DNA from: Manis javanica
Taxonomy: Eukaryota > Chordata > Mammalia > Pholidota > Manidae
Direction of reading: 5' to 3'
Assembly: GCF_040802235.1 (NCBI RefSeq)
Contig: NC_133159.1
Span: forward strand, 75,194,501-75,258,500
DNA length: 64,000 nucleotides
In this document: positions 31,600-64,000 of the stretch, piece by piece
Numbering within the stretch: position 1 is the first letter of the stretch
Layout of the letters: every line of letters starts with the position of its first letter
Notes under the pieces: generated by a model
Told to the model about the DNA's origin: nothing
Databases searched by the model: none
What the model saw: the letters and a program-made list of their open reading frames with translations, nothing else
Translations under genes and position numbers: made by a program

Positions 31600-32452
31600 A
31601 ACCGCCCCTGCCTAACCATGTGTATAGTTAAGCACACAGTTCAATAGTGTTCAGGACATTCACATTCCTGTGCAACCCATTTCCAGAGCTCTTCTCACCT
31701 CGCAGAACTGAGGTTCTGCACTCATAAGCAACAAAAAAATCCCAACTTCCTTCTCCCTTGTTCCCTGGCAACCACCATTCTACATTGTTTTTATGAATTT
31801 GACTACTCCAGGTATCCCACATAAGTACAATCATATGGTTTTTGTCTTTTTGTTACTGGTTTATTTTACTTAGCATAACGTCCTCAAGATTCATCCATAT
31901 TGTAGCATGTGTAACAATTCCTCCTTTTTTTAGGCTGAATAATATTCCATTGTGTGTGTATACCACTTTATGTCTTTTTATTATTCATTGATGGACATTT
32001 GGGTTGCTTCCACCTCTTGGCTATTTTGAATAATGCTGCTATGAACTTGGATGTGCAAGTCTTTTCAAGATACTGCTTTCAAGTCTTTTCAATATATATA
32101 TACTCAGAATTGGTATCAGTGAATCATTTGATAATTCTTTATAAGGCACTGCCATACTGTTTTCCACTGTACTTGCACCATTTTACATTCTCACTAACAG
32201 TGTACAGGGTTCTAATTTTTCTACACACTTACCATCACTTGCTGTATTCCTTTTTTTTTAAATAGTAGCCATCTTAATGGGTATGAGGTGATACTATGGT
32301 TTTGATTTGCATTTCCCTAATGATTAGTGATGTTGAACATATATTTATATGTTTGTTGCCCATTTGTATATCTTATATGGAGAAATGTCTACTCAAGTTC
32401 TTTCCCCATTTTTAACTGAGTTTTTGTTTTTGTTGAGTTGTAGGAATTCTTT
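31600..32452 (-). mobile_element. Old L1, 3' part (left of the nested young L1)
   Basis: This is minus-strand L1: 3' UTR, then the ORF2 C-terminal coding region (plus-strand 'ggctgaataatattccattgtgtg' near 31,932). It breaks at the target site 32,435-32,452 inside ORF2 and resumes at 41,031. Confidence 0.85.
32435..32452. repeat. Target-site duplication, left copy
   Basis: gagttgtaggaattcttt here is repeated exactly at 41,031-41,048. The pair brackets the young L1 including its whole unusual 3' tail, so that tail arrived in the same insertion. Confidence 0.88.
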
Positions 32453-32464
32453 TTTTTTTTTTTT

Positions 32465-32560
32465 GCATTTACTTGTTTATTCAACCAGTATATTTTTACA
32501 GTTTTATTGAGGTATAACTGACATACTATAAGCTGCACATTTAAATCGTACAATTTGATG
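32465..32560 (-). mobile_element. 96-bp 3' transduction carried by the young L1
   Basis: The segment lies between two homopolymer T runs (A runs in sense). In sense it carries AATAAA at 32,481-32,476, about 11 nt before the terminal poly(A), as expected for read-through past the element's own signal to a downstream genomic one. It resembles an old L1M 3' end ('tattgaggtataactgacatac'), presumably from the source locus, and is not collinear with the host L1 at this site. Confidence 0.75.
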
Positions 32561-32573
32561 TTTTTTTTTTTTT

Positions 32574-32897
32574 GAGAGGGCATCTCTCATATTTATTGAT
32601 CAAATGGTTGTTAACAACAATAAAATTCAGTATAGGGGGGTCAATGCTCAATGTACAATCATTAATCCATCTCAAGCCTAACTCTCGTCAGTCTCCAATC
32701 TTCTGAAGCATAATGAACAAGTTCTTACATGGTGAACGAATTCTTACATAGTGAATAAATTCTTACATGGTGAACAGTACAAGGGCATTCATCACAGAAA
32801 CTTTCGGTTTTTGATCACGCATTATGAACTATAAACAATCAGGTCAAATATGAATATTCATTTGATTTTTATACTTGATTTATATGTTGATCCCACA
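32574..32897 (-). mobile_element. Retroviral LTR U3-R segment inside the L1 3' region
   Basis: In sense this starts TGTGGGATCAAC at 32,897, immediately preceded by the purine run AAAGGGAGAAA (32,908-32,898), the layout of a retroviral polypurine tract and U3 start. It ends at a poly(A) 20 nt after AATAAA (32,597-32,592), as an RNA polyadenylated in R would. No U5 follows. The ~60-bp R end recurs at 54,526-54,590. Confidence 0.68.
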
Positions 32898-32908
32898 TTT
32901 CTCCCTTT

Positions 32909-33530
32909 ATTATTATTATTATTTTTATTTTTAATAAAATGCTGAAGTGGTAGGTAGATGCAAGATAAAGGTAGAAAACATAGTTTAGTGTTGTAGGAGA
33001 GCAATTGTAGATGATCAGATGTGTGCCTGTAGGCTATGTGTTAATCCAAGCTAGACAAGGGCAATAAACCATCCATGGATGCAGAAGATTTCTCTCAAAG
33101 CAGGGGGGATGAGGTTCTGAGCCTCACCTCTGTTGATCCCCAATTTCTCACCTGATGGCCCCCCTGCGACTGTGCCTGTCTTAGGTTGTTCCTCCCTTGA
33201 GGAATCTTACCCGTCTCTGGCTAACCAGTCATCTTCCGGGGCCATACAGGGAAATGTAAAGTTGGTAAGTGAGAGAGAAGCCATATTGTTTGAAAAGGTT
33301 AGCTTTTTACTTCTTTGCAGATTTATGCCCTGTGGCTTCTATGCCCAGCACTTGTCTTGAGGTATCTTTACCACCTGGAGGAATTATGATACTCGGTAAA
33401 TTCGATATGAGGCACAAATTCTATTGAAGGGTTGTAATTAGGAAGGAAGAAGAAAAGCTATAGAGGTAGTATATGGAAGAAAACATGGGAGGATTGATTA
33501 TTTCTTTGACATAACTTCTTGTAGAGTACC
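32909..33530 (-). other. Non-coding stretch between env fragment and LTR in the L1 tail
   Basis: About 620 bp, with no open frame of note, precedes the polypurine tract. It may be retroviral 3' sequence downstream of env. Nothing else is recognised. Confidence 0.4.
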
Positions 33531-33983
33531 TTAAGTATGTATAGGTTTTAAACTACTAACTAATTTGTACACACATATTAACATAATAGGAATACGGTGA
33601 CATAAACAAAGCAAATCTATAATTACCATCCATCTCCAGTGAAGCCAAGAAAACCATTTAGGCACCCTAGGCATTTGTGAAAATTTGTCTATGATATGAT
33701 GGATATTGTCCAACTGTACTTGAACAGTCTGAGAGAAATCAGACAAATTAAAGCAGCCCATTTCTGGGTTCTATTCACCTCCCATATGTCCTTTTAACCG
33801 TAGATAGTCTGTAGTCACAAGATTTTGGAGTGCTACACCTTGCACCCCTCCCAACTCCTGGTTGAGTTCCAACAGTACAGATCCGGTCAAATTCGTTGTC
33901 TCACTGTATGCACATGCCAGCCTAAACATCTCCCTCCTCATTCCAATGGAAAGTCCAGGAAACAGTGGGGTGGACGCAGCCAC
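33531..33983 (-). pseudogene. env: Endogenous retroviral env transmembrane-subunit fragment
   Basis: Two open pieces (33,983-33,771 and 33,761-33,531) are in the same frame with one stop between. The first has a heptad-like helical stretch (ELNQELGGVQGVALQN); the second has GCFNLSDFSQT, the region of the disulfide (CX6CC-like) motif with cysteines partly lost. A tryptophan-rich membrane-proximal stretch (PKWFSWLHWRW) and a hydrophobic anchor follow. This order is that of a class I retroviral TM protein. It is an old, broken copy. The family is not assigned; upstream SU sequence may extend toward 34,228. Confidence 0.6.
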
Positions 33984-34228
33984 GACCGCAGCATCGCCCA
34001 GATCCCTGTGGAGGCTTTTTGATGATCATCCCCCGGCACGAGTCCTACAGAGAGTGCTGATGCCAGAAGCTCCTCCTCATTTCGTATCTTAGTTCATTTT
34101 CTGGGTAGCCAAGCTAGGCCTTGATCTTCTGCATAGAAACAAGCAGACCCTTTGCCCACACCTTGACATGCCCTCTATACCACTGTGCAGAACTCATTGG
34201 AGGTCAGCACACAGGGACTGCTTTTTTG

Positions 34229-34241
34229 TTTTTTTTTTTAT
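34229..34241 (-). repeat. Internal A-rich tract (fusion scar candidate)
   Basis: In sense, AATAAAAAAAAAAA followed by CAAAAAAG separates L1-type 3' UTR from the env/LTR-containing tail. It could be the relic of an earlier poly(A) end. Confidence 0.55.
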
Positions 34242-34753
34242 TAAGAGAAAGGAATATTATCAGAAAAGAGTACCTCCATAGCTGATCATCTGACACCCTT
34301 TAAGTGATCAACATTAAGGATATTTAAAGCATGCGTTCATCTTTGATTTACCAATAGTTTTATCCTATCAAGGAGTAATCCCCCTTTTCTTTCTTTCTTT
34401 CTTTTTTTTTTTAATCTTAAATCTACACTTACATGAAGAGTACTATGTTTACTATGCTCTCCCCTATATCAGGTCCCCCCTAACAACCACATTATGGTTG
34501 CTGTCCATCAGCTTAGCAAAATGTTGTAGAATCCCTACTTGTCCTCTCTGTGTTGTGCAGCCCACCCTCCCCTTTCTCCCTCCCCCCCATGCATGCTAAT
34601 CTTAATACCCCCCTTCTTCTTCCCCCCACTTATCCCTCCCTGCCCACCCCTCCTCCCCAGTTCCTTTCCCTTTGGTACCTGTTAGTCCATTTTTGGGTTC
34701 TGTAATTCCGCTGCTGTTTTGTTCCTTCAGTTTTTCCTTTGTTCTTATACTCC

Positions 34754-37700
34754 TCAGATGAGTGAAATCATTTGGTATTTCTCTTTCTCCGCTTGGCTTA
34801 TTTCACTGAGCATAATACTCTCCAGCTCCATCCATGTTGCTGCAAATGGTTGGATTTTTCCACCTCTTATGGCTGAGTAGTATTCCATTGTGTATATGTA
34901 CCACATCTTCTTTATCCATTCATCTACCGATGGACATTTAGGTTGCTTCCAATTCTTGGCTATTGTAAATAGTGCTGCGATAAACATAGGGGTGCATCTG
35001 TCTTTCTCAAACTTGATTGCTGCATTCTTAGGGTAAATTCCTAGGAGTGGAATTCCTGGGTCAAATGGTAGGTCTCTTTTGAGCATTTTGATGAACCTCC
35101 AAACTGCTTTCCACAATGGTTGAACTAATTTACATTCCCACCAGCAGTGTAGGAGGGTTCCCCTTTCTCCACAGCCTCGCCAACATTTGTTGTTGTTTGT
35201 CTTTTGGATGGCAGCTATCCTTACTGGTGTGAGGTGATACCTCATTGTAGTTTTAATTTGAATTTCTCTGATAATTAGCGATGTGGAGCATCTTTTCATG
35301 TGTCTCTTGGCCATCTGTATTTCTTTTTTAGAGAACTGTCTGTTCAGTTCCTCTGCCCATTTTTTAATTGGGTTATTTGTTTTTTGTTTGTTGAGGTGTG
35401 TGAGCTCTTTATATATTCTGGACATCAAGCCTTTATCGGATCTGTCATTTTCAAATATATTCTCCCATACTGTAGAGTTCCTTTTTGTTCTATTGATGGT
35501 GTCTTTGGCTGTACAGAAGCTTTTCAGCTTAATGTAGTCCCACTTGCTCATTTTTGCTGTTGTTTTCCTTGCCCGGGGAGATATATTCAAGAAGAGGTCA
35601 CTCATGTTTATGTCTAAGAGGTTTTTGCCTATGTTCTTTTCCAAGAGTTTAATGGTTTCATGACTTACATTCAGGTCTTTGATCCATTTTGAGTTTACCT
35701 TTGTATATGGGGTTAGACAATGGTCCAGTTTCATTCTCCTACATGTAGCTGTCCAGTTTTGCCAACACCATCTGTTGAAGAGACTGTCATTTTGCCATTG
35801 TATGTCCTTGGCTCCTTTATCAAATATTAATTGACCATATTTGTTTGGGTTAATGTCTGGAGTCTCTAGTCTGTTCCACTGGTCTGTGGCTCTGTTCTTG
35901 TGCCAGTACCAAGTTGTCTTGATTACTATGGCTTTGTAGTAGAGCTTGAAGTTGGGGAGTGAGATCCCCCCTACTTTATTCTTCTTTTTCAGGATTGCTT
36001 TGGCTATTTGGGGTCTTTGGTGTTTCCATATGAATTTTTGAATTATTTGTTCCAATTCATTGAAGAATGTTGCTGGTAATTTGAGAGGGATTGCATCAAA
36101 TCTGTATATTGCTTTGGGCAGGATGGCCATTTTGACGATATTAATTCTTCCTAGCCATGAGCATGGGATGAGTTTCCATTTATTAGTGTCCCCTTTAATT
36201 TCTCTTAAGAGTGACTTGTAGTTTTCAGAGTATAAGTCTTTCACTTCTTTGGTTAGGTTTATTCCTTTTTGATGCAATGGTGAATGGAATTGTTTTCCTG
36301 ATTTCTCTTTCTATTGATTCATTGTTAGTGTTTAGGAAAGCTACAGATTTCTGTGTGTTAATTTTGTATCCTGCAACTTTGCTGTATTCCGATACCAGTT
36401 CTAGTAGTTTTGGAGTGGAGTCTTTAGGGTTTTTTATGTACAGTATCATATCATCTGCAAATAGTGACAGTTTAACTTCTTCTTTACCAATCTGGATTCC
36501 TTGTATTTCTTTGTTTTGTCTGATTGCCGTGGCTAGGACCTCCAGTACTATGTTAAATAACAGTGGGGAGAGTGGGCATCCCTTTCTGGTTCCCGATCTC
36601 AGAGGAAATGCTTTCAGCTTCTCGCTGTTCAGTATAATGCTGGCTGTGGGTTTATCATATATGGCCTTTATTATGTTGAGGTACTTGCCTTCTATTCCCA
36701 TTTTGCTGAGAGTTTTTATCATGAATGGATGTTGAATTTTGTCAAATGCTTTTTCAGCATCTATGGAGATGATCATGTGGTTTTTGTCTTTCTTTTTGTT
36801 GATGTGGTGGATGATGTTGATGGATTTTCGAATGTTGTACCATCCTTGCATCCCTGGGATGAATCCTACTTGGTCATGGTGTATGATCCTTTTGATACAC
36901 TGTTCAATTCTGTTTGCTAATATTTTATTGAGTATTTTTGCATCTACATTCATCAGGGATATTGGTCTGTAATTTTCTTTTTTGGTGGGGTCTTTGCCTG
37001 GTTTTGGTATAAGGGTGATGTTGGCTTCATAGAATGAGTTTGGGAGTATTCCCTCTTCTTCTATTTTTTGGAACACTTTAAGGAGAATGGGTATTATGTC
37101 TTCTCTGTGTGTCTGATAAAATTCCGAGGTAAATCCGTCCGGCCCCGGGGTTTTGTTCTTGGGTAGTTTTTTGATTACTGTTTCAATTTCTTTGCTCGTA
37201 ATTGGTTTGTTTAACTTTTGTGTTTCTTCCTTGGTCAGTCTTGGGAGGTTGTGTTTTTCTAGGAAGTTGTCCATTTCTTCTAGGTTTTCCAGCTTGTTGG
37301 CATATAGGTTTTCATAGTAGTCTTTAATAATTCTTTGTATTTCTGTGGAGTCTGTCATGATTTTTCCATTCTCATTTCTGATTATGTTGATTTGTGTTGA
37401 CTCTCTTTTTCTCTTAATAAGTTGGGCTAGAGGCTTATCTATTTTGTTTATTCTCTCAAAGAACCAGCTCTTGGTTTTGTTGATTTTTGCTATTGTTTTA
37501 TTCTTCTCAATGTTGTTTATTTCTTCTCTGATCTTTATTATGTCCCTCCTTCTGCTGACTTTAGGCCTCATTTGTTCTTCTTTTTCCAGTTTTGATAATT
37601 GTGATGTTAGACTATTCATTTGGGATTGTTCTGCCTTCTTCAAGTGTGCCTGGATTGCTATATACTTTCCTCTTAAGACTGCTTTCGCTGCGTCCCATAG

Positions 37701-38582
37701 AAGTTGGGGCTTACTGTTGTTGTTGTCGTTTGTTTCTGTATATTCCTTGATCTCTATTTTGATTTGTTCATTGATCCATTGATTATTTAGTAGCATGTTG
37801 TTAAGCCTCCATGTGTTTGTGTGCCTTTTTGTTTTCTTTGTAGAATTTATTTCTAGTTTTATACCTTTGTGGTCTGAAAAATTGGTTGGTAGAATTTCAA
37901 TATTTTGGAATTTACTGAGCCTCTTTTTGTGAGCTAGTATGTGGTCTATTCTGGAGAATGTTCCATGTGCACTTGAGAAGAATGTATATCCTGTTGCTTG
38001 TGGATGTAGAGTTCTATAGATGTCTATTAGGTCCATCTGTTCTAGTGTGTTGTTCAGTGCCTGTGTGTCCTTACTTATTTTCTGCCTGGTGGATCTATCC
38101 TTTGGGGTGAGTGGTGTGTTGAAGTCTCCTAGAATGAATGCATTGCAGTCTATTTCCCTCTTTAGTTCTGTTAGTATTTGTTTCACATATGCTGGTGCTC
38201 CTGTATTGGGTGCATATATATTTAGAATGGTTATATCCTCTTGTTGGACTGAGCCCTTTATCATTATGTAGTATCTTTCTTTATCTCTTGTTACTTTCTT
38301 TGCTTTGAAGTCTATTTTGTCTGATATTAGTACTGCAACCCCTGCTTTCTTCTCACTGTTGTTTGCCTGAAATATGTTTTTCCATCCCTTGACTTTTAGT
38401 CTATGCTTATCTTTGGGTTTAAGGTGAGTTTCTTGTAAGCAGCATATAGATGGGTCTTGCTTTTTTATCCATTCTATTACTCTATGTCTTTTGATTGGTG
38501 CATTAAGTCCACTTACATTTAGGGTGACTATTGAGAGATATGTACTTATTGCCATTGCTGGCTTTAGATTTGTGGTTACCAA
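34754..38582 (-). pseudogene. L1 ORF2 (endonuclease-reverse transcriptase), one frameshift
   Basis: The ORF starts at 38,582 ([11 protein letters not shown]). The N-terminal AP-type endonuclease shows [23 protein letters not shown] and SDHKG. The reverse transcriptase shows LFADDMILY. The C-terminus has the Cys/His motif [18 protein letters not shown]. The frame breaks near 36,255, where 14 bp present in the 48-54 kb copy are missing between short direct repeats. Otherwise the length (~1,275 codons) is that of a complete L1 ORF2. It would make a truncated protein lacking the C-terminal third. Confidence 0.92.
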
Positions 38583-38750
38583 AGGTTCAAGGTTAGCTTC
38601 TTTAGTATCTTACTGCCTAACTTAGCTCGCTTATTGAGCTGTTATATACACTGTCTAGAGATTCTTTTCTTCTCTCCCTTCTTATTCCTCCTCCTCCATT
38701 CTTCATATGTTGTGTGTTTTGTTCTGTGCTCTTTTTAGGAGTGCTCCCAT

Positions 38751-39638
38751 CTAGAGCAGTCCCTGTAGGATGCCCTGTAGAGGTGGTTTGTGGGAAGCAA
38801 AATCCCTCAGCTTTTGCTTGTCTGGGAATTGTTTAATCCCACCATCATATTTAAATGATAGTCGTGCTGGATACAGTATCCTTGGTTCAAGACCCTTCTG
38901 TTTCATTGCATTAAGTATATCATGCCATTCTCTTCTGGCCTATAGGGTTTCTGTTGAGAAGTCTGATGTTAGCCTGATGGGTTTTCCTTTATAGGTGACT
39001 TTTTTCTCTCTAGCTGCCTTTAAAACTCTTTCCTTGTCCTTGATCCTTGCCATTTTAATTACTCTGTGTCTTGGTGTTGTCCTCCTTGGATCCTTTCTGT
39101 TGGGGGTTCTGTGTAATTCCATGGTCTGTTCGATTATTTCCTCCCCCAGTTTGGGGAAGTTTTCAGCAATTATTTCTTCAAAGACACTTTCTATCCCTTT
39201 TCCACTTTCTTCTTCTGGTACCCCTATAATACAAATATTATTCCTTTTGGTTTGGTCACATAGTTCTCTTAGTGTTGTTTCATTCCTGGAGATCCTTTTA
39301 TCTCTCTCTATGTCAGCTTCTATATGTTCCTGTTCTCTGGCTTCTATTCCTTCAATGGCCTCTTGCATCTTATCCATTCTGCTTATAAATCCTTCCAGGG
39401 ATTGTTTCACTTCTGTGATCTCCTTCCTGACATCTGTGATCTCCTTCCGGACTTCATCCCATTGCTCTTGCATTTTTCTCTGCATCTCATCCCATTGCTC
39501 TTGCATTTTTCTCTGCATCTCTGTCAGCATGTTCATGATTTTTATTTTGAATTCTTTTTCAGGAGGACTGGTTAGGTCTGTCTCCTTCTCAGGTGTTGTC
39601 TCTGTGATCTTTGTCTGCCTGTAGTTTTGCATTTTCAT
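38751..39638 (-). pseudogene. L1 ORF1 (RNA-binding chaperone), one nonsense codon
   Basis: Open from ATG 39,638 for 232 codons, with an N-terminal coiled coil, an RRM-like centre (RELCDQTKRNNICIIGVPEEE) and the start of the C-terminal domain. A CAG-to-TAG change after STETL (38,942-38,940) ends it. The normal C-terminus continues in frame to 38,751. The coiled coil holds two in-frame tandem duplications: an 11-residue unit (QRKMQEQWDEM/V) and a 7-residue unit (RKEITDV/EV). Confidence 0.9.
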
Positions 39639-39639
39639 G

Positions 39640-41030
39640 GTGATAGAGATAGTTTGCAGACCTGGTACGAGTGACCGCTGGAAGAGCTTCCCTTCTTGTT
39701 GGTTTGTGGCCTTCCTCTCCTGGGAGAATAGCGACCTCTAGTGGCTTATGCTTGTCAGCTGTGCACAGACATGGCTTCTGCTACCTGCCCGTTTGCTATG
39801 GAGTTTATCTCCACTGTTGCAGTGGGCGTGGCCTGGCTGGGGCTGCTACTCCAAAGTGGTGGAGCCCCGTTGGAGGGGGAGCGGCCAGGAGGCTATTTTT
39901 CTCTGTAAGGGGCCTCTGTGCTCCCTGTTGCACAGGGGGTTAGAGTGCCCAGGGATCCCCAGATTCCCTGCCTCTGGTCTAAGTGTCCTGTCCTGCCCCT
40001 TTAAGACTTCCAAAAAGCACTCTCCAAACCAAAACAACAACAGCAACAATGAGAGAGGGAACAGAAAAAAAAAAAAAAGGAAAAAACATGCGATTTTTTT
40101 TTTTTTTCCTCAGGCGCCGGTCCCAGGCACCCGCTCACTGGTCCTGCTGCCCTGCCTCCCTAGCACCGGGGTCCCTGTCCCTTCAAGGCTTCCAAAAAGC
40201 ACCCGCCCACCGGTCCCGCAGGGAAAAACACGCTATATTCTTTGTCTTCAGGCACCGGTCCCAGGCACCCTCTCACCGGTCCTGCTGCTCTGCCTCCCTA
40301 GCACCGGGGTCCCTGTCCCTTTAAGGCTTCCAAAAAGCACTCGCCAAAAAGAGAAAAAAAAAGGGGAAAAACGCGCGATTTCCTCCATCCTCATGCGCCG
40401 GTCTCATGCACCTGCCCTCCTGTCCCGCAGGGAAAAACACGGGATAGTCTTTGTCCTCAGTCACCGGTCCCAGGCACCCGCTCACCAGTCCCGCTGCCCT
40501 GCCTCCCTAGCACCGGGGTTCCTGTCCCTTTAAGGCTTCCAAAAAGCACTTGCCAAAAAAAGAAAAAAAAAGGGGAAAAACGCGCGATTTCCTCCATCCT
40601 CAGGCGCCGGTCTCAGGCACCCGCCCACTGGTCCCGTAGGGAAAAACACGTGGTAATCTTTGTCCTCAGGCACTGGTCCCAGGCACTGCTCACCGGTCCC
40701 ACCGCCCTGCCTCCCTAGCAACGGGGTCCCTGTCCCTTTAAGGCTTCCGAAAAGCACTCGCCAAAAAAAAAAAACAAAAACGCTCCGGTTTCTTTCCACC
40801 CGCCGGGAGCCGGAGGGAGGGGCGCCTGGGTCCCGCCGGGCCGGGGCTTGTATCTTACCCCCTTCGCAAGGTGCTGGGTTCCTTCATGTGTGGATGTGGT
40901 CTGGATGTTGTCCTGTGTTCTCTGGTCTCTATTTTAGGAAGAGTTTTGTTTGTTATATTTTCATAGCTCTATGTGTTTTTGGGAGGAGATTTCCACTGCT
41001 CTACTCACGCCGCCATCTTGGCTCCGCCTC
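39640..41030 (-). promoter_or_regulatory. L1 5' UTR with tandem monomers
   Basis: The shared landmark ttccaaaaagcac occurs at about 40,008, 40,190, 40,328, 40,537 and 40,745 (the last with one change), giving spacings of about 182, 138, 209 and 208 bp. Each unit holds a GC-rich block (caccggtcccaggcaccc) and an A-rich block with cgcgcgattt. The sense 5' end has the CAAGATGGCGG motif, a YY1-type site used by L1 promoters. Plus-strand open frames of 261 and 149 residues here are Pro/Ser/Arg-rich artefacts. Confidence 0.8.
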
Positions 41031-41048
41031 GAGTTGTAGGAATTCTTT
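41031..41048. repeat. Target-site duplication, right copy
   Basis: An exact repeat of 32,435-32,452, abutting the L1 5' end (…ggctccgcctc). Confidence 0.88.
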
Positions 41049-48344: not shown

Positions 48345-48786
48345 TTTTTTTAATTTTTGTGGGGTTTTTTTGTTGTTTATTTTTATTTTTAATAAGGTAT
48401 CATTAATGTACAATCTTATGATGGTTTCACATGAACAACATGTGGTTTCAACATTCACCCATATTACCAAGTTCCCTCCACCCCATCCCATTGCAGTCAT
48501 ATCATTACATGTCTTCTCCATGCTGTACTGCCTTCCCGGTGACCTGCTTACATTGTGCTTGCTAATTATAGTGTCCCTTAATCCCCTTCTCCCTTCCTCC
48601 ACATCCACCCTCCCCAACCCCTTCCTTTTGGTAACAGCTAGTCCCTTCTTGGAGTCTGTGAGTGTGATGCTGTTTTGTTCCTTCAGTTTTGCTTTGCTGT
48701 TATACTCTACATATGAGTGAAATCATTTGGTACTTGTCTTTCTCAGCTTGGCTTATTTCACTGAGCATATTACCCTCTAGCTCCAT

Positions 48787-51700
48787 TCATGTTGTTGTAA
48801 ATTGTAGGATTTGTTTTCTTCTTATGGCTGAATAATATTCCATTGTGTGTATGTACCACATCTTCTTTATCCATTCATCTACTGATGGACACTTAGGTTG
48901 CTTCCATTTCTTGGCTATTGTAAATAGTGCTGTGATAAACATAGGGGTGCATCTGTCTTTTTCAAACTGGAGTGCTGCATTCTTAGGGTAAATTTGTAGA
49001 AGTGGAATTCCTGGGTCAAATGGTAAGTCTATTTTGAGGAAACTCCATATTGCTTTCCACAATGGTTGAACTAATTTACATTCCCACCAGCAGTGTAGGA
49101 GGGTTCCCCTTTCTCCACAACCTCGCCAACATTTGTTGTTGTTTGTCTTTTGGATGGTGGCGATCCATACTGGTGTGATGTGATATCTCATTGTGGTTTT
49201 AATTTGCATTTCTCTGATAACTAGCAATGTGGAGCATCTTTTCATGTGTCTGTTGGCCATCTGAATTTCATGTTTGGAGAACTGTCTGTTCAGTTCCTCT
49301 GCTCATTTTTTAATTGGATTATTTGTTTTCTGTTTGTTGAGGTGGGTGAGCTCTTCATATATTTTGGATGTCAAGCCTTTATCAGATCTGTCATTTACGA
49401 ATATATTCTCCCATACTGTAGGGTATCTTTTTGTTCTATTGATGGTGTCTTTTGCTGTACAGAAGCTTTTCAGCTTGATATAGTCCCACTTGTTCATTTT
49501 TGCTTTTATTTTCCTTGCCTGGGGAGATATATTCATGAAGAAGTCGCTAATGTTCATGTCCAAGAGATTTTTGCCTATGTTTTTTTATAAGAGTTTTATG
49601 GTTTCATGACTTACATTCAGGTCTTTGATCCATTTTGAATTTACTTTTGTGTATGGGGTTAGACAGTGGTCCAGTTTCATTCTCTTACATGTAGCTGTCC
49701 AGTTTTGCCAGCACCATCTGTTGAAGAGACTGTCATTTTGCCATTGTATGTCCATGGCTCCTTTATCAAATATTAATTGACCATATATGTTTGGGTTAAT
49801 TTCTGGGGTCTCTAATCTGTTCCACTGGTCTGTGGCTCTGTTCTTGTGCCAGTACCAAATTGTCTTGATTACTATGGCTTTGTAGTAGAGCTTGAAGTTG
49901 GGGAGTGAGATCCCCCCTACTTTATTCTTCTTTTTCAGGATTGCTTTGGCTATTCGGGGTCTTTGGTGTTTCCATATGAATTTTTGAATTATTTGTTCCA
50001 ATTCATTGAAGAATGTTGCTGGTAATTTGAGAGGGATTGCATCAAATTTGTATATTGCTTTCGGCAGGATGGCCATTTTGACGATATTAATTCTTCCTAG
50101 CCATGAGCATGGGATGAGTTTCCATTTATTAGTGTCCCCTTTAATTTCTCTTAAGAGTGACTTGTAGTTTTCAGAGTATAAGTCTTTCACTTCCTTGGTT
50201 AGGTTTATTCCTAGGTATTTTATTCTTTTTGATGCAATGGTGAATGGAATTGTTTTCCTGATTTCTCTTTCTATTGATTCGTTGTTAGTGTATAGGAAAG
50301 CTACAGATTTCTGTGTGTTGATTTTGTATCCTGCAACTTTGCTGTATTCCGATATCAGTTCTAGTAGTTTTGGAGTGGAGTCTTTAGGGTTTTTTATGTA
50401 CAGTATCATATCATCTGCAAATAGTGACAGTTTAACTTCTTCTTTACCAATCTGGATTCCTTGTATTTCTTTGTTTTGTCTGATTGCCGTGGCTAGGACC
50501 TCCAGTACTATGTTAAATAACAGTGGGGAGAGTGGGCATCCCTGTCTTGTTCCTGATCTCAGAGGAAAAGCTTTCAGCTTCTCGCTGTTCAGTATGATGT
50601 TGGCTGTGGGTTTATCGTATATGGCCTTTATTATGTTGAGGTACTTGCCTTCTATATCCATTTTGCTGAGAGTTTTTATCATGAATGGATGTTGAATTTT
50701 GTCGAATGCTTTTTCAGCATCTATGGAGATGATCATGAGGTTTTTGTCCTTCTTTTTGTTGATGTGGTGGATGATGTTGATGGATTTTCGAATGTTGTAC
50801 CATCCTTGCATCCCTGGGATGAATCCCACTTGGTCGTGGTGTATGATCCTTTTGATATATTTTTTGAATTCGGTTTGCTAATATTTTGTTTAGTATTTTT
50901 GCACCTATGTGCATCAGGGATATTGGTCTGTAATTTTCTTTTTTGGTGGGGTCTTTGCCTAGTTTTGGTATTAGGGTGATGTTGGCTTCATAGAATGAGT
51001 TTGGGTGTATTCCCTCCTCTTCTTTTTTTTTGTAAAACTTTAAGGAGAATAGGTATTACATCTTCTCTGTATGTCTGATAAAATTCCGAGGTAAATCCAT
51101 CTGTCTCAGAGGATTTTTCTTGGGTAGTTTTTTGATTGCCGCTTCAATTTCTTTGCTGGTAATTGGTTTGTTTAGATTTTGTGTTTCTTCCTTGGTCAGT
51201 CTTGGAAGGTTGTATTTTTCTAGGAAGTTGTCCATTTCTTCTAGGTTTTCCAGCTTCTTAGCATATAGGTTTTCATAGTAGTCTCTAATAATTCTTTGTA
51301 TTTCTGTTGGGTCCGTCGTGATGTTTCCTTTCTCATTTCTGATTCTGTTGATGTGTGTTTATTGTCTTTTTCTCTTATTAAGTCTGGCTAGAGGCTTATC
51401 TATTTTGTTTATTTTCTCAAAGAACCAGCTCTTGGTTTCATTGATTTTTTCTATTGTTTTATTCTTCTTAATTTTATTTATTTCTTCTCTGATCTTTATT
51501 ATGTCCCTCCTTCTGCTGACTTTAGGCCTCATTTGTCCTTTTTTTTCCAATTTTGATAATTGTGTTGTTAGATTGTTCATTTGGGTTTGTTCTTCCTTCT
51601 TTAAATAAGCCTGGATTGCTATATACTTTCCTCTTAAGACTGCTTTCACTGCATCCCACAGAAGTTGGGGCTTTGCGTTGTTGTTGTCATTTATTTCCAT

Positions 51701-52550
51701 ATATTGCTGGATCTCCATTTTAATTTGGTCATTGATCCACTGACTATTTAGAAGCATGTTTGTTAAGCCTCCATGTGTTTGTGAGCCTTTTTTGCTTCCT
51801 TGGTACAATTTATTTCTAGTTTTATACCTTTGTGGTCTGAAAAGTTGGTTGGTAGGATTTCAATCTTTTTGAATGTACTGAGGCTCTTTTTGTGGCCTAG
51901 TATGTGGTCTATTCTAGAGAATGTTCCGTGCGCACTTGAGAAGAATGTGTATTCTGTTGCTTTTGGGTGTAGAGCTCTATAGATGTTCATTAGGTCCATC
52001 TGTTCTAGTGTGTTGTTCAGTGCCTCTGTGTCCTCACTTTTTTTCTGTCTGGTGAATCTGTCCTTTGGAGTGAATGGTGTGTTGAAGTCTCCTAAAATGA
52101 ATGCATTGCAGTCTATTTCCTCCTTTAGTTCTGTTGGTATTTCTTTCACATATGCTGGTGCTCCTGTGTTGGGTGCATATATATTTATAATGGTTATATC
52201 CTCTTCTTGGACTGAGCCCTTTATCATTATGTAATGTCCTTCTTTATCTCTTGTTACTTTCTTTGTTTTGAAGTCTTTTTTGTCTGATAGTAGTACTACA
52301 ACACCTGCTTTTTTCTCCCTATTGTTTGCATGAAATATCTTTTTCCATCCCTTCACTTTTAGTCTGTGCATGTCTTTGGGTTTGAGGTGACTCTCTTGTA
52401 AGCAGCATATAGATGGGTCTTGCTTTTGCATCCATTCAGTGACTCTATGTGTTTTGATTGGTGCATTCAGTCCATTTACATTTAGGGTGATTATTGATAG
52501 TTATGTACTTATTGCCATTTCAGGCTTTATATTTGTGGTTACCAAAGGTT
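48787..52550 (-). pseudogene. L1 ORF2 of the second element, several frame breaks
   Basis: Readable blocks are the endonuclease 51,763-52,431 (NIYAPN, GDFN, SDHKG), the linker 51,359-51,808, the reverse transcriptase and thumb 49,585-50,829, and the C-terminus with [18 protein letters not shown] in 48,787-49,260. They occupy different frames or are separated by stops, so no complete enzyme is encoded. Confidence 0.88.
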
Positions 52551-52829
52551 CCAGTTTACTTTCCTTACTAAGAGTCTAACTTAACTCAGTATGCTGTTAC
52601 AAACACAATCTAAAGATTCTTTTCTATTTCTCCTCCTTTTTCTTCCTCCATTCTTTATATATTAGGCATCAAATTCTATACTTTTTCTCTATCCTTTGAT
52701 TGACTATGGGGATAGTCAATTTAATTTTGCATTTGCCTTGCAATCAGCTGCTCTACCCTCCCTACCATGATTTTACTACCTCTGGTGACAGCTATCCAAT
52801 CCTAGGAACACTTCCATCTATTGCAGTCC

Positions 52830-53669
52830 CTACAAAATAGACTGCAGAGATGGTCTGTGGGAGGTAAACTCTCTCAGCTTTTGCTTATCTGTAAATTGTT
52901 TAATCCCTCCTTCAAATTTAAATGATAATCTTGCCGGATAAAGTAATCTTGTTTCCAGGTCCTTCTGCTTCATGGCATTAAGTACATCATGCCACTGCCT
53001 TCTGGCCTGTAAGGTTTCTGCTGAGAATTCTGATGTTAGTCTGATGGGCTTTCCTTTGTGTGTGATCTTATTTCTGCCTCTGGCTGCTTTTAACAGTCTG
53101 TCCTTATCCTTGATCTTTCCTATTTTAATTACTATGTGTCTTGGTGTTGTCTTCCTTGGGTCCCTTGTGTAGGGGGATCTGTGGATCTCCATGGCCTGAG
53201 AGACTCTCTCCTTCCCCAGATTGGGGAAGTTTTCAGCAACTTCCTCCTCAAAGGCACTTTCTATCCATTTCTCTCTCTCTTCTTCTTCTGGTATCCCTAT
53301 AATGTGAACATTGTTCCATTTGGATTGGTCACACAGTTCTCTCAATATTCTTTCATTTTTAGAGATCCTTTTTTCTCTCTGTGCCTCAGCTTCTTTGTAT
53401 TCCTCTTCTCTAGTTTCTATTTCATTTATTGTCTCCTCCACCATATCCAACCTGCTTTTAATACCCTCCATTGTGTTCTTTAACGATTGGATCTCTGACC
53501 TGAATTCATTCCTGAGTTCTTGGATGTCTTTCTGTACCTCCATTAGGATGTTGATGATTTTTATTTTGAACTCCCTTTCAGGAAGAGTCATGAGGTCCAT
53601 ATCATTTAAATCTTTCTCAGGAGTTGTATTAACAATTTTACTCTGGACAAGGTTCCTTTGGCGTTTCAT
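52830..53669 (-). CDS. L1 ORF1, open 279 codons
   Basis: An uninterrupted frame from ATG 53,669 to stop 52,830. It has an N-terminal coiled coil (~35-115), an RRM-like domain with ILRELCDQSKWNNVHIIGIPEEE (~125-150), and a C-terminal domain with PRHIVIKI, THKGKPIRLTSEFSAETLQARR and YPARLSF. The basic C-terminal domain that binds RNA is intact. Without a working ORF2 in cis it is probably not under selection. It is still the only complete L1 protein frame in the window. Confidence 0.85.
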   Translation of the reverse strand: MKRQRNLVQSKIVNTTPEKDLNDMDLMTLPEREFKIKIINILMEVQKDIQELRNEFRSEIQSLKNTMEGIKSRLDMVEETINEIETREEEYKEAEAQREKRISKNERILRELCDQSKWNNVHIIGIPEEEEREKWIESAFEEEVAENFPNLGKERVSQAMEIHRSPYTRDPRKTTPRHIVIKIGKIKDKDRLLKAARGRNKITHKGKPIRLTSEFSAETLQARRQWHDVLNAMKQKDLETRLLYPARLSFKFEGGIKQFTDKQKLREFTSHRPSLQSIL

Positions 53670-54525
53670 GTTTGTATATGGCGCCCTCTAGTGTCCAGAA
53701 GCTCTATTCTGGAGCTGCTGAGCCCCTGAAGCAATGTCGGGGGTCACAGGGGAGCAGTACTTGGGGTAGGAAAGAGCTGTTCCCCGCCTCCCAGCTGCTG
53801 TGCCTGTCTCCACTGCCTGAGCCAGTGGGCCGGTCACACAGGTTTAAGTTTTTGTCCCAGAGCAGCCAGATATGGATCCCTGCTTTCCACAACCAGCTGG
53901 AATCCCAGTCTTCCCAAGAACTCTGCCTGTTAACTTTCCAACCCAGTAGTCATGCGAGTCTCAAGAAAGCACCATGAAATGTAGGTTTGTGCTCCCACAG
54001 CAGATCTCTGGAGCTAGGTATTCAGCAGTCCCAAGCCTTCCACTCCCTCCCTGCTCCATTTCTCTTCCTCTCACGGTGAGCTGGGGTGGGGGAGGGGCTC
54101 AGGTCCTGCAGAGCCACAGCTCTGGTACATTACCCCATTCGCTGAGGTCTGCTCTTTTCTCCAGGTGTGTGCAGTCTGATGCCCTCCTCTCTCCTGTTGC
54201 TCTCTCAGGATTAGTTGCACCAATTAAATTTTCTAATTGTATCCAGTTTTAGGAGGAAGCCCCTGTCTCTCCTCTCACGCTGCCATCTTTTTTTTGATTT
54301 GTCGATTTGTTTTCTTTTTTATGGCTGAATAATATTCCATTTAATTTGACTTTTCAATTTGTTATACAAAGTTTCAGAAAGCAATCACAGAATTTTATGT
54401 CTGGAATGGAAACTTACAGATACATGGTACCACATTCAACTTGGACTCAATGTAGGATAAAAGAAGGACAACTTATTCTTTTCATCTAATGCAAAGTACC
54501 TAGTATTTTTTCAACTTAACATTAA

Positions 54526-54630
54526 CCCTCCTATACTGAATTTTATTGTTGTTAACAACCATTTGATCAATAAATATGAGAGATGCCCTCTCAAAAAAAA
54601 AAACGAAGATTAAAAAAAAAAAAAAAAGGT
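54526..54630 (+). mobile_element. Isolated copy of the retroviral R end with poly(A)
   Basis: Plus-strand ctatactgaattttattgtt to gagatgccctctc matches, in reverse complement, the end of the LTR segment at 32,574-32,640. It is followed by A11, a short insert and A15. It is about 65 bp of element sequence plus tail, which looks like a drastically 5'-truncated retrocopy of the same tail. Confidence 0.7.
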
Positions 54631-54699
54631 CATCCCTAGATCTAGGAAAGGTAAATCAAAGCCTTTATGAAGGGTTTTTGTGTGGTTTTGTGACTTTTA

Positions 54700-56600: not shown

Positions 56601-58325
56601 ATTTCAATTGCCAAGACTTGTAATTCCTATAGGAGAAACATGTTTTAAAAATATGTTTTTCAATCTGATTATAGAAGAGTATATTGGCAAGAGCAAAACT
56701 GTAATCAAAATGTTTTCCTAAAGTGATAAAGGGTAATTAGAGTCAGTTTGATTGAGTTGGTACAATGTTCTTTTGTGCCCTATGCATTTAATTTAATGAG
56801 CTTTATTTAATGAATTTAATACACTCTGGAAAAGCTGGTCTAGCACCTTGCTTTGGAATGAGTTATTATTTGATACCTAATAGTTTCAGTTTTTGGCTTT
56901 AGTGGACATTCCCAGACAAGAATAGTCTTATTCTGAACCATCATGCAACAAAACGAGAAGCAGCACAAAGCTGATGACACCTTGATCTTCATTGGGTTTC
57001 TGGAAACAGTCTTGAAGCAGTTTCAGCTCAGAAGTGTGTTCAGTGCAATTCAACAGCAAATGCAAGTATCAAGATAGAGGAATACATGGTTTTTTTGGTC
57101 CATGTTTATAAGATTAGAGAATTTCTAAGCAGGAGAAAGACAAACTAGGCTGTGACAGGATTCTAAAAGCAACACAAGAGACACTTTGGATACAGCTGTG
57201 AATAAAGAAATAAGGACACTGTTACTATACAAAATACGAGGCAATGAACCAGGTTGGTGAGTTGTCGGTTTTACAGTCCAAGGAGGGACTGAGCCTCTGT
57301 AGAGGAAGTCTGCTTTTGGGTCAGCAGTCAGGCTACCTAAGGCCTGGGAGTGAGAGGGACATGAGAATGCAGTAGACTTTAATATGTGTAGGATGGATAC
57401 TGAGACTAAAAATGAGGCTTCCTCTAAGACCAGGACACTGGGTGCTAGTATTACGTATTTGTGAATGACGAGGATAAAAGTGTTTCTTATGCTACCGCCT
57501 GAGAGGCCTTGGCATTCCTCTATTCCTTGTACCTCACTGCAGCTTCACCCTCTCCCACCGCTACTTAGTGTAATTATTCATGCCACTTTATTAATAAGGT
57601 ATTGCTGAGCTATATCCCTGGATCTTGGCCATTCTTTAGCTTACCATGACCCCAGTCCCTAGAAACAGATTCAGTGCCTTCAAAGGGAGGCTAATTGGAA
57701 AGGGTATCTTCACCCTTAGTTTCAACATCCAATCAGTTAGTTTGGTCTCCGCTCATTGCTTGCAACACCTGGTTTGTGATGGGAATGTGTATGTATGTAG
57801 ATTGTTGTTCATCTTTACTGCCAAAAGAGCCTCCTATACAGTCTCTTAAAACTTTTCAAGGATAGTTCATTTTAGGTTATGGAATTTTTGAATTTGTGAC
57901 TCTGGCATCATGTCAATCACACTCTACTTTCAAAAGCAATTGATTTGCATTTCGCCTATTTGTCATCATTATGGTTCCAAGGCCTTCAATGCCAGCATTT
58001 GCGTTGATTAACAGGGAGTTAATTAGAGGCAGAGCAGTCTAAGTAACATTCTTACACCAGGAAGTATAAAAGCACTGAATTCTCTGATCCACGTTCCTTC
58101 CAAGAGCTCTCTCAGGGCTTCAAGGGCCAGAATTGTGTTGGCGATGGGCTTCTTCTATATAGCTTGAGGGGCTCCCACCCCAACCTGAACACTGAACATA
58201 GGTCACTGAGTGAACCAGCTACCCAGGAATAATCCTTCCTAAACCTCCTGGAGGGATGACCCAACACGAAGAAGGACATCAATTCCCCTAACGGAGGATA
58301 GCCATTGATATACACTTTTATGTGT
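56601..58325. other. No gene recognised
   Basis: Sequence between the pseudogene and the third L1. The 67-residue frames near 57,646 and 58,112 show no family signature. I looked for a GBP P-loop exon here and did not find one. Confidence 0.5.
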
Positions 58326-58329
58326 CATT

Positions 58330-61300
58330 GTTATACACTTTTATGAAGCTTTCACATGAAAATTAATTTGGTTACTACATTCACCCATATTATCAAGTCC
58401 CCCCCCAAACCCACTGAAGTCACTATCCATCAGTGTAATAGATGCCACAGAGTCACTACGTGTCTTCTCTGTGCTACACTGTCTTCCCCATGACCACTAC
58501 ACTCCATGTGTACTAATCATAATACCCCTCAATCCCCTTCTCCCTCCCTACCCCCCCAACCTTCCCTACCCCTCACCTTTGGTATTCGCTGGTCCCTTCT
58601 GGAGTTTGTGAGTCAGCTGCTGTTCAGTTTTGTTTCATTGTTACACTCCACAAACGAGGAAAATCATTTGGTACTTGTCTTTCTCTGCCTGGTTTATTTC
58701 ACTGAGCATAATACCCTCTAGCTCTATCCATGTTGTTGCACATGGTAGGATTCGTATCTTTCCTATGGCTGAATAGTATTCCATTGTTTATATGTACCAC
58801 TTCTTTAACATTCATCTACTGATGGACCCTTAAGTAAATACTGCTGCAATAAACATAGGGGTGCATATGTCTTTTTGAATCTGAAAACTTGTTTTCTTTG
58901 GATAAATACCTATGAGTGGAATTCCCCGTTCAAATGTTATTTCTAGTTTTAGTTTTTCAAGGAACCTTCAGATTGCTTTCCACAATGGTTGAACTAATTT
59001 ACATTCCTGCCATCAGTGTAGGAGGGTTCCCCTTTCTCTGCATCCATGACAGCATTTGTTGTTCCTAGTCTTTTGGATGTTGGCCATCCTAACTGGTGTG
59101 AGGTGATATCCACTGTGGTTTTAATTTGCATTTCCCTGACAATTAGTGATGTGGAGCATCTTTTCATGTGCCTGTTGGCCATCTGAATTTCTTCTTTGGA
59201 GAAGTATCTGTTCAGATCCTCTGTCCATTTTTTAATCAGGTTATTTGCTTTTTGGTTGTTGAGGCATGTGAATTCTTTATGTATTTTGGATGTTAACCCC
59301 TTGTTGGATATGTCATTTACAAATATATTCTTCCATACTGTAGGATACCTTTTTGTTCTGCTGGCAGTATCCTTTGCCGTACAGAAGCTTTTAAGCTTGA
59401 TGTAGTCCCATTTGTTCATTTTTGCTTTTGTTTCCCTTGCCTGAAGAGATGCATTCAGGAAAAAGTTGCTCACATTTATATTCAGGAGATGTTTGTCTAT
59501 GTTTTCTTCTAAGAGTTTTATGGTTTCATGACTTACATTCAGGTCTTTGATCCATTTCAAATTTACTTTGTGTAGGGAGTTAGATAATAATCCAGTTTCA
59601 TTCTCTTACATGTAGCTGTCTAGTTTTGCCAACACCAGTTGTTGAAGAGGCTGTCATTTCCCCATTGTATATCCATGGCTCCTTTATTGTATATTAATTG
59701 ACCATATATGACTGGATTTATATCTGGGCTCTCTAGTCTGTTCCACTGGCCTATGGATATGTTCATGTGCCAGTACCAAATTGTCTTGATTACTGTGACT
59801 TTGTAGTAGAGCTTGAAGCCAGAGAGTGTAATCCCCAGCTTTATTCTTCCTTCTCAGGATTGTTTTGGCTATTTGGGGTCTTTCATGGTTCCATATGAAT
59901 TTTAGAACTATTTTCTCTATTTTGTTGAAGAATACTGTCGGTATTTTGATAGGACTTACACTGAATCTATAGATTGCTTTAGGCAGGAAGGCCATTTTGA
60001 CAATATCAACTCTTCCTATCCATGAGCATGGGATGTATTTCTTTTTATTGGTATCTTCCTTAATTTCTCTCATGAATGTCTTATAGTTTTCAGGGTATAG
60101 ATCTTTCACTTCTTTGGTTAGATTTATTCCTAGGTATTTTATTCTTTTTGATGCAATTGTGAATGGAATTGTTTTCCTGATTTCTCTTTCTGCTAGTTCA
60201 TCAATAGTGTATAGGACTGCCACAGATTTCTGTGTATTAATTTTGTATCCTGCAACTTTGTTGAATATAGATATTAATTCTAGTAGTTTTGGAGTGGATT
60301 CTTTAGGGATTTTATCAACAATGTCATGTCATCTGCAAACAGGCACAGTTTAACTTCTTCCTTACCAATCTGGATGCCTTTTATTTCTGTGTAATCTGTT
60401 TGCTGTGGTTAGGACCTCCAGAACTATGTTGAATAAATGTGGAGAGAGTTGGCATCCTTGTCTTGTTCCCAATCTTAAAGAGAAAGCTTTCAGCTTCTCG
60501 CTGTTAAGTATGACATTGGCTGTGGGTTTGTCATATATGGCCTTTATTATGTTGAAGTACTTGCCCTCTGTACCCATTTTATAGAGAGTTTTTATCATGA
60601 ATGGATGTTGAAATTTGTCAAATGTTTTTCAGCATCTATGGAGATGATCATGTAATTCTTGTCCTTCTTTTTGTTGATGTGGTGTATGATGTTGATGCAT
60701 TTTCAAATGTCGTACCATCCCTGCATCCCTGGAATAAATCCCACTTGATCATGATGTATTATCTTTTTGATGTATTTTTTATTTCGGTTTGCTAATATTT
60801 TGTTGAGTATTTTTGCATCTTTGTTCATCAGGGATATTGGTCTGTAATTTTCTTTTTTTTTTGTGTGGTGTCTTTGCCTGGTTTTGGTATTAGAGTGATG
60901 CTGGCCTCATAGAATGAGTTTGGAAGTATTCCTTCCTCTTCTACTTCTGGAAAACTTTGAGGAAGATGGGTATTAGGTCTTCACTAAATGTTTGATAAAA
61001 TTCAGTGATGAAGCCATCTGTTTCAGGGATTTTGTTCTTACATAGTATTTAAGTTGCCAATTCAATTTCATTGCTGGTAATTGGTCTGTTCATATTTTCT
61101 GTTTCTTCTTGAGTCAGTCTTGGAAAGTTGTATTTTTCTAGAAAGTTGTCCATTTCTTCTAGGTTATCTGATTTGTTAGCATATAATTTTTCATAGTATT
61201 CTCTAATAATTCTTTGTATTTCTGTGGTGTCCATAGTGATTTTTCCTTTTTCATTTCTGATTCTGATCATGTGTGTCAACTCCTTTTTTTTCTTGATAGT

Positions 61301-64000
61301 TCTAGCTAGGGGTTTATTTTGTTATTTTTTTTTCTCAAAGAACAAGCACCTGATTTCATTGATTCTTTCTATTGTTTCATTCTTTTAGATTTTAGTTATT
61401 TCTGCTTTGATGTTTATTATGCCCCTCCTTCTACTGACTTTGGGCCTCATTTGTTCTTCTTTTTCTTGTTTCATTAACTGTGAGTTTAGACTGTTCATAT
61501 GGGGCTGTTCTTCTTTCCTGAGGTAGGCCTGTATTGCAGTTTACTTCCCTTTTAGCACGGCCTTTGCTGTGTCACACAGATTTTGTGGTGTTGAATTATT
61601 GTTGTCATTTGTCACCATATATTGCTTGATCTCTGTTTTTTTGGTCATTGACCCATTGATTATTTAGGAGAATGTTGTTAAGCCTTCATGTGCTTGTGGG
61701 CTTTTTCTTAATTTACTTCTAGTTTCATACCTTTGTGATCTGAGAAGCTGGTTGGTACAATTTTAATCTTTTTGAATTTACTGAGGTTCTTTTTGTGGTC
61801 TAGTATATAATCTATTCTTGAAAACGTTCCATGTGCACTTTAGAAAAATGTGTATCCTTCTGCTTTTGGGTGGAGTGTTCTGTAGGCATCTGTTAGGTCC
61901 ATCTGTTCTAATTTGTTGTTCAGTGCCTCTGTTTCCTTACTTCTTTTCTGTCTGGTTGATCTGTCCTTTGGACTGAGTGGTGTGTTGAAGTGTCCTAAAA
62001 TAAATGCTTTGTATTCTATTTCCCCCTTTACTTCTGTTAGTATTTGTTTCACATATGTAAGTGCTACTGTGTTGGGTACATAGATATTTATAATGGTTTT
62101 ATCTTCTTGTTGGATTGACCCCTTTATCATTATGTAATGTCCTTGTCTCTTGTGACTTTCTTTGTTTGGAAGTCTATTTTTTTTAAACAAGTACTGCAAC
62201 TCCTGCTTTTTTCCCCCTATTGTTTGTATAAAATATCTTTTTCCATCCCTTCACTTTTATTCTGTGTATGTATTTGGGTTTGAAGTGAGTCTCTTGTAGG
62301 CAGCATATAGATGGGTATTGTTTTTTATCCATTCAGTGTCTCTATGTCTTTTGATTGCTGTATTCAGACCATTTACATTTGGGGTGATTGTCAATTGGTA
62401 CGTACTTATTGCCATTGCAGGCTTTAGATTCATGGTTAACAAAGGTTCAAGGGTAACTTCCTTACTGTCTAACAGTCTAATTTAACTCACTTACTATGCT
62501 ATTACAAACATAATCTAAAGGTTCTTTTTTTCCCCCCCTTTTTCTTCTTCTTCCAGTCTTTATATATTAGGAGTCCTACTCTGTATTCTTTTTCTGTCCC
62601 TTGACTGACTTTGGGGCTAGTTGATTTGATTTTGCATCTGTTTAGTAATTAATTGTTCTACTTTCTTTACTGTGGTTTCATTTACTCTGGTGAAAGCTAT
62701 TTAGCCTTAGGAATATGTCCATCTGTAGCAGTCCCTTCAAAATACACTATAGAGATGGTTTGTGGGAGGTAAATTCTCTCAGATTTTGCTTATCTGGAAA
62801 TTATTTAATCCCTCCTTGAAATTTAAATGATAATCTTGCCAGGTAGAGTATTCTTGGTATGAGGCCCTTTTGTTTCATTGCATTAAATATATCATGCCAT
62901 TCTCTTCTGGCCTGTAAAGTTTCTGCTGAGAAGTGTGATGATAGCCTGATGGGTTTTCCTTTGTATGTGATCTTTTTTCTCTCTCTAGCTGCTTTGAGAA
63001 GTCTGTCTTTATCCTTGATATTTTGCCATTTTAATTATTATAGGTCTTGATGTTGCCTTCCTTGGGTCCCTTGTGTTAGGAGATCTGTTCATCTCCATGG
63101 CCTGAGAAGCTATCTTGTTCCCAAGATAGGGGAAGTTCTCAGTAATTACCTCCTCAGAGACACTTTCTATCCCTTTTTTTCTCTCTTCTTCTTCTCGTAC
63201 CACTGTAATGTGAATATTGTTCCTTTTGAATTGGTCACACAGTTCTCTCAATGTTTTTTCATTCCTAGAAATCCTTTTTTCTCTCTGTGCCTCAGCTTCT
63301 TTTTAGTTCTATTCTCTAATTTCTATTCCATTTATCATTTCAGATACTGTATTCTTCAATGTTTGTATTTCATTCTTGAATTCTTCCCTGAGGTCTGAAT
63401 ATTTTTCTGTATCTCCATGAGCATGTTTATGATTTTTATTTTGATATCTCTTTCAGGAACATTGATGAATTCAGTTTCACTTGGCTCTCTTTCTGGTATT
63501 TGTGGGATTTTGGTTTTAACCCAGTTCCTTTGATGTTTCATATTTGTCAGTGGTGCCCTGTGGTGCCCAGAAGCTCTATTCTCTGGAGCTGCTCAGCCCC
63601 TGGAGTGATTGGAGGGATCTCAGGCCTGGGTGCTGGTACCTGTTGGTAGGAAAGAGTTCTTTCCTTTTTCCTGGCTGCTGTGCCTGCCTCCACTGCCAGG
63701 GCCAGTGGGCCAAGTGTGCAGGGAGAAGCCTCTATGCTTTGTGCTTGTAGCTGCCATAGGTGGGGCTGCCCTCTGGCTGCCCTTGTGCAATGGCAGGGGC
63801 AGCCAGTTGCTAGCTGGTGTCAGCTGGGTGGAAGACAGAGCAGGCTGTGTATCACAGTGGGGGTTTCATAGCTGTGTAGCTAGCCAGGGGGATGGAGCTT
63901 CTGAAGCTCCTGAAAGTTCCCAACCTGCTGGGCTGAGTGTGCCTGGACAATTTTGTCTCCCTGTACTTTCTCCTGAGCAGCAAGCTCTGTGCAGTCCTTG
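58330..64000 (-). mobile_element. Third L1, oldest of the three full-length minus-strand copies, runs off the window
   Basis: The 3' UTR starts near 58,330. ORF2 lies in fragments from about 58,760 to 62,442: 58,994-59,560, 59,684-60,223, 60,362-60,598, 61,049-61,279, 61,840-62,199 and 62,257-62,442. ORF1 lies in fragments up to 63,541, and a GC-rich 5' UTR runs from 63,545 to the edge. Its 5' UTR start (gccctgtggtgcccagaagctctattct) is related to that at 53,680 in the second L1. Confidence 0.88.

Follow-up and report, generated by a model that had tools for sequence, protein, structure and literature searches.

The DNA analyzed here (64,000 nucleotides of the Manis javanica genome, hereafter the window) contains an L1 element whose 3' end is extended by the end of a retroviral env gene and part of an LTR. 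This extension is layered and probably arose through stepwise 3' growth of the L1 RNA by serial read-through, with the env-LTR sequence included. A broader proposal, which is only slightly favored, is that a whole L1 lineage swapped its own 3' end for the env-LTR and ends its transcripts at the retroviral polyadenylation signal, so that the viral sequence spreads as a permanent component of an autonomous L1. The observation made in an initial, sequence-only reading of this DNA is real, well preserved and correctly read in outline, and the interpretation offered there is partly supported by the results described below.

The Outer Insertion and the L1 Body

The element is flanked by an 18-bp target-site duplication (TSD), with one copy on the 3' side of the element (32435–32452) and the other on its 5' side (41031–41048), neither being assigned a strand. 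The two copies are identical at 18 of 18 positions, confirming the claim that a TSD encloses the L1 and the endogenous retrovirus (ERV) part together. When the flanks are joined with one TSD copy kept, an older L1 aligns across them with 65% identity over 3,886 columns and without a gap at the join. The target of the outer insertion is this older L1, and the TSD together with the gapless alignment over the joined flanks indicates that the TSD-bounded unit (32453–41030, 8,578 bp, minus strand, read from 41030 to 32453) is one outer insertion that includes the ERV part. Both the TSD and a poly(A) tail are present, as expected of target-primed insertion.

The sequence-only reading had gone from a single TSD to a single RNA. 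While the single outer insertion stands, the second step does not follow from it, because a retrocopy that later entered the A-tail would not alter the outer TSD, and its own duplication would consist of A residues alone; the outer TSD alone is therefore not decisive. Such a nested insertion would involve an L1-made retrocopy of a retroviral mRNA, 5' truncated within env and ending at the R poly(A) site, that entered the A-tail of this L1 after it had landed, placing the tail outside the L1 lineage. The retrocopy would share the orientation of the L1 because its target was an A-run, A-runs flank both sides of the ERV part, and a non-A duplication is not required. Furthermore, U5-less, poly(A)-tailed ERV retrocopies made by L1 are a known class, as exemplified by HERV-W (PMC6995185). 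This explanation is nonetheless unlikely, as the retrocopy must have hit a run of less than 30 bp in this single copy, and a limited scan, blind to an all-A duplication, saw none at the borders of the ERV part. Separate readable TSDs around the ERV part, which the sequence-only reading had named as the sign of a later insertion, were accordingly rejected within this narrow scan, although an all-A duplication may have escaped it.

The L1 body (34413–41030, minus strand) consists of a 5'UTR with tandem repeats of ~209 bp, ORF1, ORF2, and a 3'UTR with a G-rich tract, as delineated by the ORFs, the tandem repeats, and the alignment of the 3'UTR to two other L1s in the window. We take the ORFs to be those of an L1. 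Their homology to other L1s in the window and the 3'UTR alignment, which extends up to the A-run at 34412–34402 with a mean column identity of 72%, identify the element as a mammalian L1, which is near full length. ORF1 (38940–39638, minus strand) encodes 232 aa before an in-frame stop, beyond which the frame is open for another 62 codons, and ORF2 (34754–38582, minus strand) is made up of two overlapping frames of 785 and 507 aa with one frameshift near 36.25 kb. Of the normal ORF2 and 3'UTR described initially, only the 3'UTR is borne out by alignment, as ORF2 is frameshifted and ORF1 is also broken by a stop. Since both ORFs are broken, this copy is uninformative about present activity. The GC-rich 209-bp repeats of the 5'UTR (~2.8 copies with 89% matches, 40199–40780) probably represent a promoter array.

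Layers of the 3' End

In the sense of the element, the L1 3'UTR is followed by an A-run, a segment of ~142 nt, an A-run, the ERV part, an A-run, a 96-nt segment and a final A-run, such that four A-runs set apart three non-L1 segments (all on the minus strand). The first A-rich run (34385–34412) is a remnant of the old L1 poly(A) and is composed of A11 (34412–34402) followed by AAAG repeats, with an ATTAAA at 34415. It is followed by the first extension, a non-L1 segment of ~142 nt (34243–34384) whose L1-proximal 45 nt are common to another copy (P0021, described below). The second A-rich run (34222–34239) has the form A11 C A6, with the A11 at 34239–34229 and an AATAAA at 34242, and it precedes the captured retroviral 3' part (32574–34221, 1,648 nt), which was recognized by sequence reading and a profile of the env transmembrane (TM) region. 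The third A-run (A13, 32561–32573) is a poly(A) located 18 nt past the AATAAA of the LTR and is now internal. Beyond it lie a further 3' extension of 96 nt (32465–32560) with an AATAAA at 32481–32476 and the terminal A-run (A15, 32450–32464), the last 3 residues of which overlap the TSD. An ATTAAA or AATAAA thus overlaps each of the first two A-runs; for the third and fourth, the signal precedes the run by 18 and 11 nt, respectively.

This arrangement corrects the sequence-only reading in two respects. The ERV part had been placed directly after the L1 3'UTR; it begins at ~34221, and the ~142-nt segment and A-runs intervene. Similarly, the poly(A) reported about 20 nt after an AATAAA is present as the A13 at 18 nt, but it is not the end of the element, which lies 96 nt later at a second poly(A). 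Both the ~142-nt and the 96-nt segment were absent from that description. The narrow scan for TSDs gave only a 6-base AAAAAG match around the ~142-nt segment, and an Rfam search of 32300–34900 returned zero matches. The 96-nt segment resembles the 3' terminus, in antisense, of what may be an ancient L1M-type repeat, and it may mark the source locus. The AAAG repeats after the first A-run (34385–34401) look as though a microsatellite had developed from the former poly(A).

In L1 3' transduction, the element's own poly(A) site is read through and a downstream signal is used, which leaves internal A-runs inside one outer TSD. The element studied here likewise contains non-L1 sequence past the L1 3' end that is bounded by A-runs and lies within the TSD, and its A-run-separated layers inside one outer TSD are like those of L1 3' transduction, including the serial form. 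Unlike in usual L1 3' transduction, one of the transduced sequences is an env-LTR whose own signal set the new 3' terminus, after which yet another layer was added. In contrast, template switching normally puts foreign RNA at the 5' side of the L1, whereas the foreign parts here are located 3' of the L1, each after an A-run. It is very improbable that an ERV RNA was set behind the L1 RNA while reverse transcription was under way, by RNA joining or template switching, even though L1 is known to form chimeras with other RNAs, in which the two parts share one orientation, as they do here, when RNA processing or template switching produced them (PMC13174262). A definition of L1 3' transduction is given in PMC12593883.

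Anatomy of the Retroviral Part

The captured part carries, in the same orientation as the L1, a remnant of the env TM region (about 33531–33998, minus strand), which was delineated by profile search and translation and retains one frame with one in-frame stop and a degraded CX6CC motif. A TM-like fragment had been reported at 33,531–33,983, and its retroviral nature is upheld by a profile match to the TM of avian-type ASLV entries described in the next section, the frame running from about 33998 to 33531. Further downstream, sequence reading identifies a polypurine tract, AAAGGGAGAAA (32898–32908, minus strand), directly before a 324-nt LTR portion (32574–32897, minus strand) that starts with TG at 32897, contains an AATAAA at 32597–32592 and is without U5. 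From this anatomy, the LTR portion appears to be U3-R, and the polypurine tract and TG can be seen in the sequence just as initially claimed. The polypurine tract followed by the TG of the LTR, the poly(A) signal in R and the env TM homology together identify the 3' part of an ERV. The LTR is cut at the poly(A) 18 nt after the AATAAA, with U5 absent, which is where a retroviral RNA ends. A complete provirus, with gag and pol between a pair of LTRs, is not present, as the captured part spans 1,648 nt and comparison of the tail with the window revealed no second LTR copy in it. A 19-bp repeat is found within the LTR (3.3 copies, 32714–32776).

Relatives of the TM Fragment

The identity of the env fragment was probed by searching a 76-aa TM piece from the window against 5.8 billion proteins; of the 21 candidates returned, 20 are relatives at E ≤ 0.1. 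Combining the window piece with 14 of them gives a 15-sequence profile that matches two ASLV TM entries, with E = 8.2e-9 and 8.5e-9 (the best 2 of 10 hits), while the next hits are an unrelated one at 0.24 and another envelope glycoprotein at 0.27. By its sequence, the env part is a retroviral TM, and a chance resemblance to env is rejected on the basis of this profile search. A 75-aa window TM piece alone reached ASLV TM only at E = 1.3, and a PDB search with the 76-aa piece gave 3 hits, all unrelated (E ≥ 0.45). The match to env profiles anticipated in the sequence-only reading was therefore obtained with the 15-sequence profile but not with Pfam, where two window TM pieces matched 0 families at E ≤ 10. 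Results were similar for 8 of the 20 relatives, as four gave no Pfam hits and the other four gave hits only below the curated cut-offs (P0015: TLV_coat 0.016 and Colicin_Ia 0.15; P0012: Babuvirus_MP 0.25; P0003: GP41 0.094; P0008: Gpi1 0.0017, GP41 0.055, CoV_S2 0.095 and Babuvirus_MP 0.25).

Of the 20 relatives, 19 display the CX6CC region (read by eye in P0009), and P0013 lacks it. The whole motif is kept in three of these 19 (P0005, P0008 and P0010), and nine of the 19 have the first C of the CC changed to G, which is the same change found in the window piece. None of the branches in a tree of 16 TM pieces is well supported (0 of 13 starred, 9 open), so the tree was used for nearest neighbors only; by path length in this poorly supported tree, these are P0001, P0020 and P0004, while the highest identity to the window piece is that of P0011, over 47 columns. 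Among viral contigs, protein searches yielded no confirmed relative and two DNA words yielded none, and phage records gave zero matches. Prokaryote contigs gave 0 matches for a 30-mer; two matches of a 20-mer were judged to be due to chance, as local BLAST shows only 20–23 matching bases.

Other Copies in the Window and Elsewhere

When the 1.65-kb tail was used as a query against the window, it matched only itself and another copy of the LTR 3' end that is truncated on its 5' side (54520–54603, plus strand; 97.6% over 84 nt, E = 6e-36). This copy, a second retroposed LTR end, is poly(A)-terminated, and no clear TSD was seen at 54520–54603. At 84 nt, it is too short to show linkage to an L1. 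Within 54520–54640, this copy carries an A-run followed by CGAAGATT and a second, longer A-run, which could reflect an extension of 8 nt or a tail altered by mutation.

These copies bear on whether the env-LTR is a stand-alone, non-autonomous retroposon that L1 moved in trans, like the SINE-R of SVA, with the link to L1 being incidental. The second LTR-end copy has no visible L1, and the database holds 20 TM relatives, with the damaged CC motif shared by nine of the 19 in which the region is visible. However, the copy at 54.5 kb is 5' truncated and would also be expected from an L1-linked family, and the stand-alone explanation seems quite improbable.

The tail is not an ordinary L1 3'UTR. This possibility was rejected because two other L1s of the window that were read at the 3' end (48370–53600 and 58300–63460, in the same orientation) lack the env-LTR tail. 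In the aligned parts, identity to the L1 studied here is 90.8% for the 48-kb L1 (4,105 columns) and 79.6% for the other. The 3' end of the 48-kb L1 is an A-rich stretch, and that of the 58-kb L1 has no clear poly(A).

A copy of the first junction was found outside this locus. P0021, a protein from another contig (836 bp), was the sole match with E ≤ 1 among 4 candidates (E = 6.8e-33), and its alignment (80% over 140 aa) begins at the ORF2 stop, covers the L1 3'UTR and the first A-run, and reaches 45 nt into the 142-nt segment. Because P0021 corresponds to a noncoding frame open by chance, it acts as a tracer of DNA, and its sequence indicates, as a single protein, that the L1/142-nt junction is present elsewhere. 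A protein search for the 142-nt/env junction with the ORF at 34093–34278 gave no candidate, a result that is weak either way, since it requires that noncoding frame to be open in other copies. For an L1 lineage sharing the L1/env junction, there is therefore one further copy with the L1/142-nt junction and an env-junction search without a candidate.

Proposed Origin of the Chimera

The favored route is serial 3' transduction, in which each A-run would be a former end of the element that was later overrun. First, an ancestral L1 would have overrun its own poly(A) site and gained ~142 nt of flank. Next, a later L1, located within the env region of a provirus or a short distance upstream of it (or next to a retrocopy of an env-LTR), would have read on in the same direction, and cleavage at the poly(A) signal of the LTR R region would have made the retroviral end the new L1 3' end. 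A descendant would then have read through again, adding 96 nt of flank. Finally, target-primed reverse transcription would have inserted the present copy into the older L1. The internal A13 suggests that, prior to the final round, there was a molecule whose end lay at the LTR, and we infer that the env-LTR and L1 moved as one RNA, more than once, and in this order of events. Read-through to the retroviral poly(A) site, as proposed initially, is consistent with the A13 at the LTR signal and the extra 96-nt layer; the adjacent provirus of that proposal is not distinguished from an env-LTR retrocopy that was present in the A-tail beforehand. The sequence-only reading also supposed that the tail is very abundant in pangolins and that the chimera would thereby have founded a successful L1 lineage.

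Should the env-LTR serve as the functional 3' end of an L1 family, this would show that 3' transduction by L1 is able to create a new element that persists. Such a lineage would be an autonomous counterpart of the SINE-R of SVA and would explain the multiplication of a broken env fragment without a virus. Additionally, it would offer a series of 3' extensions that can be dated and used to test the costs and benefits of having a strong poly(A) site downstream. To our knowledge, a recruited L1 3' end is less familiar than a recruited 5'UTR. The repeated recruitment of new 5'UTRs by L1 families is described in PMC5872511.

Comparison with Known Systems

No L1 lineage with an env-LTR 3' end was found among the top-ranked papers of a literature search whose coverage excludes most subscription journals. 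The main text of a 2026 study of L1 chimeras does not contain 'endogenous retrovir' or 'ERV', though the study names SVA as a fusion involving an LTR sequence (PMC13174262). According to PMC12593883, the SINE-R of SVA derives from the env end and 3' LTR of HERV-K10; the same proviral stretch is thus reused in both cases as the 3' end of an L1-mobilized element. Unlike in the non-autonomous SVA, the env-LTR described here is fused to an L1 that contains ORF1 and ORF2 (both broken) in one TSD-bounded unit. The viral sources also appear to differ, as the TM in the present element resembles that of an alpharetrovirus (ASLV).

The processed pseudogenes of HERV-W, as described in PMC6995185, similarly have a 3' LTR without U5 followed by poly(A), but they have no joined L1 body. 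Finally, the available part of PMC12584738 describes ERV-Gamma.b9-Mpen, a provirus of the Chinese pangolin in which a near-complete L1 lies between env and the 3' LTR. This provirus, likened here by description, is reported as an L1 insertion into a provirus and not as a mobilized chimera, and its L1 upstream of the 3' LTR is the kind of arrangement that the read-through model needs.
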